NCBI GenBank assembly: GCA_024223715.1
Contig: JAAEOA010000204.1
Coordinates: forward strand, 1 to 64,000
DNA length: 64,000 nt
From: a bacterium
Lineage (GTDB): Bacteria > Krumholzibacteriota > Krumholzibacteriia > LZORAL124-64-63
Direction of reading: 5' to 3'
In this document: positions 10,646 through 24,332 of the stretch, piece by piece
Numbering within the stretch: the first letter of the stretch is position 1
How the letters are laid out: each line of letters starts with the position of its first letter
Notes under the pieces: model-generated
What the model saw: the letters and a program-made list of their open reading frames with translations, nothing else
Database searches by the model: none
Told to the model about the DNA's origin: nothing
Made by a program: the position numbers and the translations under genes

Positions 10646-11476
10646 TCAATTACCCGCAGTTAACTGGGTTATAGCGTTGTGGCCAAAACCCACCAATTCC
10701 ATCACTTCAACCCTGATTCGGGCCGGTGGAACCGGGATTTTTCGATTGGGAGGATCCAACGATGATACAGCCTTAACCCGCTCCGAGGCATAAGCCAACC
10801 CCAGGAAAGGGATCTCTTCATTTACAGCTGCAGCAATTTCCCGGGAGGAAATTTGGAGCATTTTTCCCGCCGGCATTATTGCGCTTTGGGTATCGGCACT
10901 GGCCATGACCCACTGCCTGCACGAGAACTGCCGTCCCTGAACCACACGAGTAGTCTTCTGCTGGCTGCTGATTTCATCAGGTACAAAATCAGACTGGAAG
11001 GAAGTGGAAATCATTGGATCCTGGCGCAACTCTTCCGCAGTGACATCTCGAACCTGTGCATCTTGCCAAAGACGAACCGAAACCACTGCCGACAACAATG
11101 GCCCCTGTCTATCCAATATTTTCGCAGACAAACGAACCTGAGCACCCTGACCGGCTGCTGGCAACAAACTGCCATCGGATTGCTCATCCAGTGGCAATAA
11201 TTCCAGTAAATACGTGCCATCGTTATTGTCGGTTGGGGTGGCCAGGCAGGCAATGCGGGTAATGCCCTCTTCACGCCGGCCGCCAGCCATAACCTGATGC
11301 CGGTAATCAACGTAATCGCCCTGCTTAATACTGAGTGGGATTTCCGTTTGACTCCAAAGAGTAAACAGATCCAGAGCTGTTGCAGGAACCGCCAAGAAAA
11401 TTATTAAAGCAAGAGTCCAGAGAGAACAAACGGCCGACAAATGCCGGCCGTTCGTTTTCAGAAATAAGTTTCGCAA
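10646..11476 (-). CDS. Secreted protein of unknown function downstream of the cytochrome
   Basis: 276 residues from a TTG 8 nt after AAGGA, 11 bp beyond the stop of the cytochrome gene. This start gives a signal peptide (MRNLFLKTNGRHLSAVCSLW, then LALIIFLAVPATA). The longer open frame would start inside the cytochrome gene. The mature part has a beta-rich region (YVDYRHQVMAGGRREEGITR) and no enzyme motif that I recognise. Tight spacing suggests an operon with the metallophosphatase-cytochrome, so a periplasmic partner role is possible but unproven. Confidence 0.7.
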   Translation of the reverse strand: MRNLFLKTNGRHLSAVCSLWTLALIIFLAVPATALDLFTLWSQTEIPLSIKQGDYVDYRHQVMAGGRREEGITRIACLATPTDNNDGTYLLELLPLDEQSDGSLLPAAGQGAQVRLSAKILDRQGPLLSAVVSVRLWQDAQVRDVTAEELRQDPMISTSFQSDFVPDEISSQQKTTRVVQGRQFSCRQWVMASADTQSAIMPAGKMLQISSREIAAAVNEEIPFLGLAYASERVKAVSSLDPPNRKIPVPPARIRVEVMELVGFGHNAITQLTAGN

Positions 11477-11487
11477 AACCGTATTCC

Positions 11488-12858
11488 TTAATGTTTGATT
11501 TTTTCCCAGTAAGTGGCGTAATCGAACTCGGGACTGTTTTCCTGATCGTGACAGGTGACGCAGGAATCTTTTGCCTGAGCAATCCATTTACCATCCCGGT
11601 CGTGTTCGGTTCCATAACCATGACAAGCTTCACACTGCACATTTGACAACTTGTTGAATGGGGATTTTTCAGCAAAGCCATTCAAATAACGATAGCCGGT
11701 TGTATGGCAGAGAATGCACTCCGGTTCGTTGCTCATTCCTTTGGCCCTGATACTGGTAAAAGCCGTATTATGCGACGATTCAGCATAGGCAGCCCAAGTG
11801 TCTTCATGACAGGTTTTGCAGGAACGTGCTCCCAGGTAAGTCTCTTTTTCGGACCCAAGGTCCCGGGGAAAATCTGCCCGTTTGGCTAATTTGAATTCTT
11901 CAAAACTGGCTTTGTATTCTTCAACTCGCTTGGCCATTTCCGGTTCGTCGTCCAGGGCCTCATCCAGGCTGGTCACTTCAACTTCAAATGCTTCGACCCG
12001 ACCGTTTTCATCGTTGACGAAAATATCTGAACGGCCAGCAAAGCGACCTTCATGAGGTGCTGCAAGAATAATGGTATCGTCAACAAGACGGCCTTTTTTC
12101 AAAGTCCGGTGTACGTGCCCCATGAGAACAAGATCGAATCCCTTTACTTCACGGACCAATGTATCGGTTTGGCCTTCGCCCAAGTGACCGATCAAAACAA
12201 CGGTGTCGCATTCTTCACGCAACCGGGGCATCAGTTCACGCATGGTCGCCACCGGGTCTTTTATATCAAGACCACTGTCGGTTTCGGTCATGGTGATGAT
12301 TTTGTGACGGGGAGCCAAAATGCTGACCAACCCGAACTTGATGCCATTTTTTTCCACGATCAGATATTCCGGGAGAATCAACTCTCCGGTATTGCGATCC
12401 ACAACATTGGCATTGGTGAAAGGCAGGTCGTATTTTTCAATCATTTCCCTGAGAAAGTCCAAACCGTAATTCAGGTCAGCTTCACCGAGACCAATGCCAT
12501 CGTAACCAAAATCACCAGTCACTTCACACAGGAAATGGGTCTGATGCTGATCATTCTTGTTGCGCCGACCAAAGAGGTCACCGCCGTCGAGCATGAGGAC
12601 AGGCACATTTTCGTTCCAAACCGAGTCAAAGTAGGTCGCCCTCCGGGCAACCCCGCCACGCTGTTTGGATTTTCAGCCACAGGGGTCTATTTTGCCCTTC
12701 ACATCACTCAAATAGAGCAATGAGACATTCTTCCAACTGCCTTTGTCGGCAGCCAGAGCACTTTTGTTGGAGATAACCCCAAGGCCACCAGTAGCCAACA
12801 ACACAAAAACAAGTGTTGTCAGGCTCAGTAACTTGGCCCGTCCCATAAACTTGGTCAT
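11488..12858 (-). CDS. Metallophosphatase-tetraheme cytochrome c with in-frame UGA (candidate selenoprotein)
   Basis: 456 residues if the TGA at 12673-12675 (codon 62) is read through. The ATG at 12858 follows AAAGG and opens a Sec signal peptide (MTKFMGRAKLL... to ALAA). Then comes the first strand of a UshA/5'-nucleotidase-type phosphoesterase (LLYLSDVKGKIDPCG), the TGA, and without a frame change KSKQRGGVARRATY and MLDGGDLFG. As I know the family, homologues read PCGC before GG-ARRA, so the TGA stands where a Cys is expected. The phosphoesterase part has GHLGEG and GHVHRT, but the usual DxHG is DVKG. The C-terminal ~130 residues carry four heme sites: CKTCH, CILCH, CEACH, CVTCH. It is probably periplasmic. 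Alternatives are a pseudogene or a sequencing error. Confidence 0.75.
12634..12652 (-). promoter_or_regulatory. SECIS-like hairpin after the in-frame UGA
   Basis: Twenty nt after the UGA the mRNA can form an 8-bp stem, GGTTGCCC with GGGCGACC (one G-U pair), closed by a GGA loop. Bacterial SECIS elements are stem-loops within about 40 nt after the UGA with a G at the start of the apical loop, and this one fits that description. No SelB-binding test is possible by eye. Confidence 0.5.
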
Positions 12859-13085: not shown

Positions 13086-13379
13086 TTACTTTTGGACTCT
13101 TTCTTTCAGGCTCTTACCAGCCACAAACGCAGGATACTTAGCTGCTGCGATGGTGATGGATTCGCCAGTTTGGGGGTTGCGTCCAGTACGTTTTTTACGA
13201 TTGCGACGCTCGAAGGAACCAAAACCAGTAATCTGGACCCGGTCACCTTTGGCTACTGCGCTGGCAATAATTCCTTCGCGTGGTGCGGTGGAAAAAATCG
13301 CATCAACAGCACGCTTGGAAGCGGCTTTACTCATTCCGGTTTTCTTTGCCAATTTTTCGGTGAGTTCTGTTTTATTCAT
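13086..13379 (-). CDS. HU-family DNA-binding protein
   Basis: 97 residues, the normal length for HU/IHF. An N-terminal helical dimer part (MNKTELTEKLAKKTG) is followed by the family signature GFGSFERRNRKKRTGRNPQTG, which forms the DNA-binding beta-arm. The ATG is preceded by GGGGGTGAG; the longer frame is ignored. It has its own terminator and a 91-bp gap behind lptD, so it is probably monocistronic. HU versus IHF cannot be decided by eye, but a single such gene points to HU. Confidence 0.95.
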   Translation of the reverse strand: MNKTELTEKLAKKTGMSKAASKRAVDAIFSTAPREGIIASAVAKGDRVQITGFGSFERRNRKKRTGRNPQTGESITIAAAKYPAFVAGKSLKERVQK

Positions 13380-13470
13380 TCGTCTCACCCCCTTTCGTTT
13401 CTCCATTAGTCCCATGATACGGGGGTTTGTCAACTGTTATATTATTTCAAAATGACCAGGCGGAAAAAAA

Positions 13471-22766: not shown

Positions 22767-24332
22767 TTACCTCGGCCGCAAAACCAGGAAAGGACAAATC
22801 ATTTCTTCCAGGCTAATGCCCCCGTGCTGGAAACTATCCCGATACAACCTCTCGTATTCATGAAAGTTGGTAGGATACACAAGGTAGAAATTCTCAGTGG
22901 TGATGGCATAATTTTCAATAGTGGACTCTGCTGGCAGACGATAATCCTTGGGATTTTTCATGAGCAGAATGCGGTCATCTTCAGCTCCCAGATTGTCTCC
23001 AAATTTATACCGAACATTGCTGCTGGTATCGCGGTTTCCACGAATTTTCATACTGCGGGAACACATCATGGAACCATGATCGGTTGTCAAAATTACGGTG
23101 CAATCACGGCGGGCCAAACTCTTCATAATGCTGTACAAATTGGAATGCTCAAACCAAGTGCGCATGAGAGTTCGGAAAGCAGCTTCATCCGGAGCCAGTT
23201 CCTTGAGAATGCGGTTCTGACTGCGACCATGAGCCATAATGTCAAGGAAGTTATAAACCGCAGCCACAAGACGGGTATCGCCCATGCTGCCCAAATTTCG
23301 GTGCAACGGATCAATGTCCCGCTCATCGGCAATTTTAAAATACTGACAACTTCCTGAAGCGGCACTGCCCACTCGTTTGAGCAACTCATTGAGTAATTCG
23401 GCCTCAAAAGCGTTGCGGCTGCCTTCGTGGTTCCCCTGCCGCCAGAATTTGGGATAACCTTCAGCAATATCCTGCGGATACAGACCGGCAAAAAGGGCAT
23501 TGCGGGCATAAGGTGTTGCCGTTGGCAGCATCGACCAATAACTTTTGCGGTCCAAATGAAAGAAGGGCTCCAGCAATGGCTCAATCATGCGCACCTGATC
23601 CATACGCATGCAATCAATGGTGATCCAGAAAACCTGCCGGCTGCGTTGAATTTCCGGCTCGATCATTTTTTCGAAAACCCGGGGACTGAACATGGGGACA
23701 TTTTCATCCAGCGCTTCTGGGTCTGTGTGAATCCAGTCGCGATAGTTTTCTCTTACATATTTCCCAAAAGCCAGATTGGCGGCCGACAGTTGCTCCGATT
23801 GGGTTTCCAGCAAACCGTGGTCGCTGTACTGATACAAATCCATGCCCCAATTGACCAGATCGGCGTAGATGTTTTCCCAGGCCTTCGGGTTTTTTGCCTG
23901 GGCAATTCGGTCCGTCACAGCCATAAAATTGCTCATGTAATCGCGCGTAATTTCTTCGCCGGCCAGTTTGCGTGCTTCCACCTGGCGCTTCAGAGCAGAC
24001 AAGACCTGAATGGGGCTCACGGGCTTAACAAGGTAATCATCGATGCGTTTGCCAATGGCCCGGGTCATCAGGTCTTCAGCTTCACTTTTTGTAATCATAA
24101 TGACAGGAATGTTATGATCGATTTTTCGAATGCCCTCGAGGGTTTCAAGTCCGCCCATGCCGGGCATCATTTCGTCTAGCAGAACTGCATCAAAATCTTT
24201 TTCTTCGAGCACTGCCAGAGCATCTCGCCCATTGGTCACTCCTTCAACATTGTATCCTTTTTCACCCAGATACATGGAGTGAGACCGCAGCTCTTCAATA
24301 TTGTCATCAACCCAGAGAATTTTATAAGCCAT
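22767..24332 (-). CDS. porX: PorX-type response regulator with PglZ (alkaline-phosphatase-like) domain
   Basis: 521 residues. A receiver with acidic pocket Asp9/Asp10, phospho-acceptor Asp53 (AVLLDEMMPG) and KP (DDYLVKPVSP) is followed by a helical linker. From about residue 225 comes a PglZ domain: VFWITIDCMRMDQ (metal Asp), SMLPTATPYARNALFAG (catalytic Thr) and LTTDHGSMM (metal Asp-His). In Bacteroidota PorX controls the type IX secretion system and its PglZ domain degrades nucleotides; a similar role here is inference. ATG 7 nt after AAGGAG. It follows the sensor kinase by 30 bp, and tsaE follows closely. Confidence 0.93.
   Translation of the reverse strand: MAYKILWVDDNIEELRSHSMYLGEKGYNVEGVTNGRDALAVLEEKDFDAVLLDEMMPGMGGLETLEGIRKIDHNIPVIMITKSEAEDLMTRAIGKRIDDYLVKPVSPIQVLSALKRQVEARKLAGEEITRDYMSNFMAVTDRIAQAKNPKAWENIYADLVNWGMDLYQYSDHGLLETQSEQLSAANLAFGKYVRENYRDWIHTDPEALDENVPMFSPRVFEKMIEPEIQRSRQVFWITIDCMRMDQVRMIEPLLEPFFHLDRKSYWSMLPTATPYARNALFAGLYPQDIAEGYPKFWRQGNHEGSRNAFEAELLNELLKRVGSAASGSCQYFKIADERDIDPLHRNLGSMGDTRLVAAVYNFLDIMAHGRSQNRILKELAPDEAAFRTLMRTWFEHSNLYSIMKSLARRDCTVILTTDHGSMMCSRSMKIRGNRDTSSNVRYKFGDNLGAEDDRILLMKNPKDYRLPAESTIENYAITTENFYLVYPTNFHEYERLYRDSFQHGGISLEEMICPFLVLRPR

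Follow-up and report, generated by a model that had tools for sequence, protein, structure and literature searches.

A probable selenocysteine codon in an UshA-like metallophosphatase-tetraheme cytochrome gene of a Krumholzibacteriota bacterium

The locus and its in-frame UGA

A gene on the minus strand of the window (the whole 64,000-nucleotide stretch of DNA analysed here) would be a continuous coding sequence from 12858 to 11488 were it not for one TGA, and so the question that it raises is whether this triplet ends the protein, is an error, or is read as an amino acid. The frame starts with an ATG at 12858 and closes with a TAA at 11490-11488, and its single internal stop is the TGA at 12675-12673, codon 62. 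With TGA given as U the translation has 456 residues and one U, at position 62. The initial annotation had a signal peptide, a phosphoesterase and four CxxCH motifs lying in one frame split by this TGA, and its coordinates and motifs hold as given, with LLYLSDVKGKIDPCGU, GGVARRATY, LDGGDLFG and the four CxxCH all found in the translated frame. The window makes up almost all of a contig of 64,018 bases in a draft genome.

Three parts of the product can be distinguished. Residues 1 to about 37 (12748-12858, minus strand) look by eye like a signal peptide, with a basic start, a hydrophobic stretch and a SALA/A-type cleavage site. A domain of the 5'-nucleotidase/SoxB-type metallophosphatase fold follows at about residues 44-290 (11989-12729, minus strand), as judged from an AlphaFold2 model, Foldseek and positions 16-272 of the NCBIfam model NF041198, and the C-terminal residues 337-456 (11491-11850, minus strand) form a tetraheme cytochrome domain of the Cytochrome_C554 type (PF13435, E=1.7e-12; NF041198 positions 361-519).

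Reading of codon 62

Selenocysteine at codon 62 is strongly supported and by far the best reading, judged from sequence comparison, and the combined statement that this UGA is selenocysteine and that the gene belongs to the UshA-like (NF041198) family is given a probability of about 0.95. A complete decoding machinery is present in the same genome, with selA at 438.5 bits (cut-off 267.9), selB at 331 bits (cut-off 242), selD at 367 bits (cut-off 125) and tRNA-Sec (selC) at 69.5 bits (gathering score 47); the tRNA-Sec, selB and selD searches also match weakly in trait-free controls, and reliance is placed on the scores above cut-off. The selD gene of the organism (L042, G000:C187:36379-37296) itself contains one in-frame TGA, and the host SelD is probably also a selenoprotein.

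The column that holds the TGA of 12673-12675 (PCGU) is occupied by selenocysteine or cysteine and by no other residue in 80 full-length homologues, namely the window gene and 79 further loci from many phyla. U is found in 61 of the 80 and C in 19, a ratio that is not a census since the set was chosen by similarity to mostly selenocysteine-containing sequences. A tree built without the codon-62 column requires five changes between selenocysteine and cysteine, of which well-supported branches force at least three. The proposal of the initial annotation that U for Cys is the simplest reading is thus upheld by the selA, selB, selC and selD genes, all four of which it had named as a check, and by the cysteine homologues that it had expected at this position.

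The frame would also be open if the organism read UGA as Trp or Gly, and this is all that speaks for a reassignment. With a full selenocysteine machinery in the genome, a homologous residue that is Cys and never Trp or Gly, and genes in the window that are not otherwise full of TGA, such a code is scarcely credible.

Doubt of another kind comes from the data, for the source is a metagenome-assembled genome (completeness 90%, contamination 6.65%) and there is only a single stop to explain, as would be so were the gene a pseudogene with a nonsense mutation or the TGA a misread TGC or TGG in the assembly. Among 35 genomes from the same bacterial family 33 have an orthologue, and every one of these 33, from separate assemblies, has exactly one in-frame TGA, aligned on the same codon in those orthologues that were tabulated. 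The protein downstream of the TGA is also strongly conserved and Cys is the sole alternative residue, all of which makes an error or a pseudogene extremely improbable. The recurrence of the TGA in genomes that were assembled separately, within the genus and within the family, effectively refutes such an origin.

The UGA could in principle be a real stop within a working locus, yielding a 61-residue peptide and, from a GTG at 12606, a truncated enzyme of 372 residues (12606-11488). The initial annotation found no alternative start convincing; this judgement stands in that the GTG product would be without the signal peptide and the first strand, and needs amending in that the 372-residue frame is formally possible. 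A form so truncated would be missing strand 1, the GGxARR segment and the signal peptide that c-type haem attachment requires, whereas homologues show conservation both before and after the UGA and those with Cys are read straight through. An arrangement of two products is accordingly given next to no weight, and with selenocysteine as the reading of codon 62 the selenoprotein status of the window gene is well supported.

A SECIS-like hairpin downstream of the UGA

Just downstream of the codon, at 12633-12653 on the minus strand, the RNA is predicted to form a hairpin of 9 bp with a GGA loop, its stem beginning 19 nt and its loop 28 nt from the UGA. Its standing as a SECIS-like element is strongly supported by predicted folding, by covariation and by its decay in most cysteine homologues. 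Across 43 distinct selenocysteine sequences the stem pairs in 86.8% of cells, the covariation score reaches 0.313, compared with 0.157 in shuffled data, with 35 cells changed on both sides, and slid registers of the stem score worse than the actual one. Compensatory changes include GCCC/GGGC to GCUC/GAGC and GUGGCCC/GGGCCAC to GUAGCCC/GGGCUAC, and RNAalifold returns the same inner stem with six pairs. The folding energy of the 27-nt hairpin is unusual (z -2.81), that of the whole 50-nt stretch ordinary (z -0.88). In the cysteine homologues the same register retains 0-2 bp in the first six tested and 0-5 in a wider set.

Conservation of the hairpin is inflated by its overlap with the conserved coding motif LARRA, and arginine codon usage was therefore compared: in the selenocysteine genes CGG or AGG encodes the two motif arginines in 101 of 108 cases, whereas for Arg codons elsewhere in these genes the figure is 541 of 1378. 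The stem is missing in this register from some selenocysteine homologues, mostly distant ones (L023/L094, L105, L124, L126, L140, L146, L154 and L157), and so other forms of SECIS must exist. An Rfam scan of the window at the gathering threshold gave no match, which is not evidence against a SECIS because a fitting model need not exist.

Family membership and known relatives

The window protein is a member of a catalogued selenoprotein family and not the founder of a new one, a point of which the initial annotation was unaware. It passes the NF041198 model ('UshA-like (seleno)protein') marginally, at 276.4 bits with C substituted for U against a cut-off of 275, and the match spans both the metallophosphatase and the cytochrome parts; since the C-terminal part of the model matches the cytochrome region, the fusion itself belongs to the known family. 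Ocean metagenomes yielded 76 instances of a COG0737 UshA-like CxU selenoprotein in a 2008 count (PMC2398784), and a 2026 review includes NF041198 in its list (PMC13188914). With these descriptions the window protein has in common the two-domain architecture, the CxU motif and the position of the selenocysteine (PMC2398784, PMC13188914). Among the papers searched there was no report on the function of the UshA-like (seleno)protein family, nor any match for PCGU or for a metallophosphoesterase-multiheme selenoprotein, and the main text of a paper on marine Deltaproteobacteria selenoproteins does not mention the family.

Within the phylum NF041198 matches in 80 of 80 genomes searched and its cut-off is exceeded in at least 14 of them, a lower bound because the frames were scored in pieces and the window's own gene falls below the cut-off when treated that way. 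Many relatives in this bacterial class are clearly homologous yet score below the cut-off, and in some the Cys of CxU is Ala, Ser or Phe instead. A second model, NF049981 (UshA-like selenoprotein family 2), describes a related N-terminal metallophosphatase segment with selenocysteine, but the window protein reaches only 44.6 bits against its cut-off of 140, the match to this 262-position model being confined to the N-terminal part, and NF049981 is listed as CxxU (PMC13188914) whereas the family of the window protein is CxU. Other genomes of the class also carry TGA-containing UshA-like paralogues (L072, L073, L074 and L075) that show no tetraheme match, three of the four having SGMARW in place of GGxARR.

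The fold of SoxB (TIGR04486) and of the UshA and CD73 5'-nucleotidases is common to the window protein over some 310-360 alignment columns. In contrast to these enzymes it has a tetraheme domain in place of the 5'-nucleotidase C-terminal domain (which Pfam did not find in the window protein), its metal ligands are partly replaced and it carries the selenocysteine. Its C-terminus has the haem-binding arrangement of the cytochrome c554 family (PF13435), although here the domain is fused into a larger protein.

Gene neighbourhood

The genes around the locus offer little on function. Upstream lie FolC, ROK-family, LptD and HU genes, the nearest being that of the HU-type DNA-binding protein (13086-13433, minus strand; identified by translation, and in relatives' loci by tblastn), and downstream lie a gene for a secreted-looking protein of 276 residues without a Pfam match (10646-11476, minus strand) and an exonuclease gene. 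The order LptD-HU-selenoprotein is kept in most relatives with enough flanking sequence, as is the adjacent gene for the 276-residue protein in most such family members. No functional clue was found in the conserved set of LptD, HU, selenoprotein, 276-residue protein and exonuclease; the conservation of order suggests inheritance and not a pathway. Elsewhere in the window (22770-24332, minus strand) a response regulator receiver domain is fused to a PglZ domain.

Fold and metal site

The metallophosphatase fold and the four haem sites are strongly supported. The AlphaFold2 model has a mean pLDDT of 90.3 and a pTM of 0.86, and the solved structures nearest to it in Foldseek are CD73, bacterial 5'-nucleotidases, UshA and SoxB, with E down to 1.8e-22. 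The metal site is another matter, for the di-metal set (D-x-H, GNHE, H, GHxH) is not intact: D52, D91, H225, H248 and H250 are kept, while K54 stands in for His and GE for NH. The motif-I His is taken by us to be H43 of E. coli UshA, and the matching of positions to the metal-ligand numbers of that enzyme likewise comes from its known structure together with motif alignment, not from a superposition. In relatives the motif-I His is mostly Arg, Lys or Gln and GNHE becomes GEx. Of the 80 homologues 56 have Asp52, 57 have Asp91, 55 have His225 and 52 have His248, and there are clades that keep selenocysteine without Asp52 (SAVQG, ETRAVG), without Asp91 or without the histidines.

Against this variation, none of the 80 homologues departs from the Sec/Cys residue, from the GG and leading Arg of GG-x-x-R or from any of the haem CxxCH residues. 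The constraint does not extend to the Cys two positions ahead of the selenocysteine, for which one group has Ala, Ser or Phe (PAGU, PSGU, AFGU). Loci in which selenocysteine is kept and the Cys of PCGU lost are L054, L057, L058, L060-L063, L109, L117-L119, L121, L129 and L130.

A possible function

Several metal ligands having been replaced, the protein has probably lost the phosphatase chemistry of its ancestor or changed it. With the Sec/Cys and the haem residues invariant and the metal ligands variable, we infer that it is the selenocysteine and not the di-metal site that is essential. On the best explanation, SelB and tRNA-Sec decode the UGA of codon 62, the insertion signal being the hairpin that follows it closely, and the product is exported and loaded with four c-type haems. 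The loop that joins motif I to the GG-x-ARR helix would hold the selenocysteine, adjoining the former di-metal phosphoesterase site. There it (or Cys) would act as the reacting group on a small substrate in the periplasm, which may be a sulfur or selenium compound, in a redox step whose electrons arrive or leave through the tetraheme domain. That the protein carries out such a redox step, with Sec/Cys as the reacting group wired by the haems and not as a nucleotidase, is a tentative proposal put at somewhat under even odds. The fuller picture of a redox enzyme on a phosphatase scaffold, with a decayed metal site and a lone catalytic Sec/Cys wired to the fused tetraheme cytochrome, is slightly more doubtful again.

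Retention of Asp52, Asp91, His225 and His248 in most relatives means that metal may still bind. The selenoprotein could on this account still be a metal-dependent phosphoesterase or a SoxB-like sulfate thiohydrolase, in which selenocysteine binds the metal as a ligand or has a tuning role and the tetraheme domain only relays electrons elsewhere, an alternative that concerns function only and is credited with roughly one chance in three. Besides the four retained ligands it draws on the closest folds being 5'-nucleotidases and SoxB, and on a TIGR04486 (SoxB) score of 84.8 bits, but that score falls far short of the 550-bit cut-off, other residues have taken the place of the second motif-I ligand and of the NHE motif, and some selenocysteine clades also go without Asp52, Asp91, His225 or His248.

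Significance for the family

Gene prediction that treats every UGA as a stop would cut such genes short. The range of the catalogued family is here extended to Krumholzibacteriota and neighbouring phyla, in which selenocysteine is used by most of the members sampled. New are the many orthologues with a clear SECIS-like element, the variants that keep selenocysteine without the neighbouring Cys (PAGU, PSGU), and the erosion of the metal site in the metallophosphatase domain next to an invariant Sec/Cys. In members with PAGU or PSGU, the loss of the partner Cys would rule out a simple redox pair of Cys and Sec, and an invariant Sec/Cys near an eroded metal site, together with four haems, gives a testable idea of what the job of the family may be.
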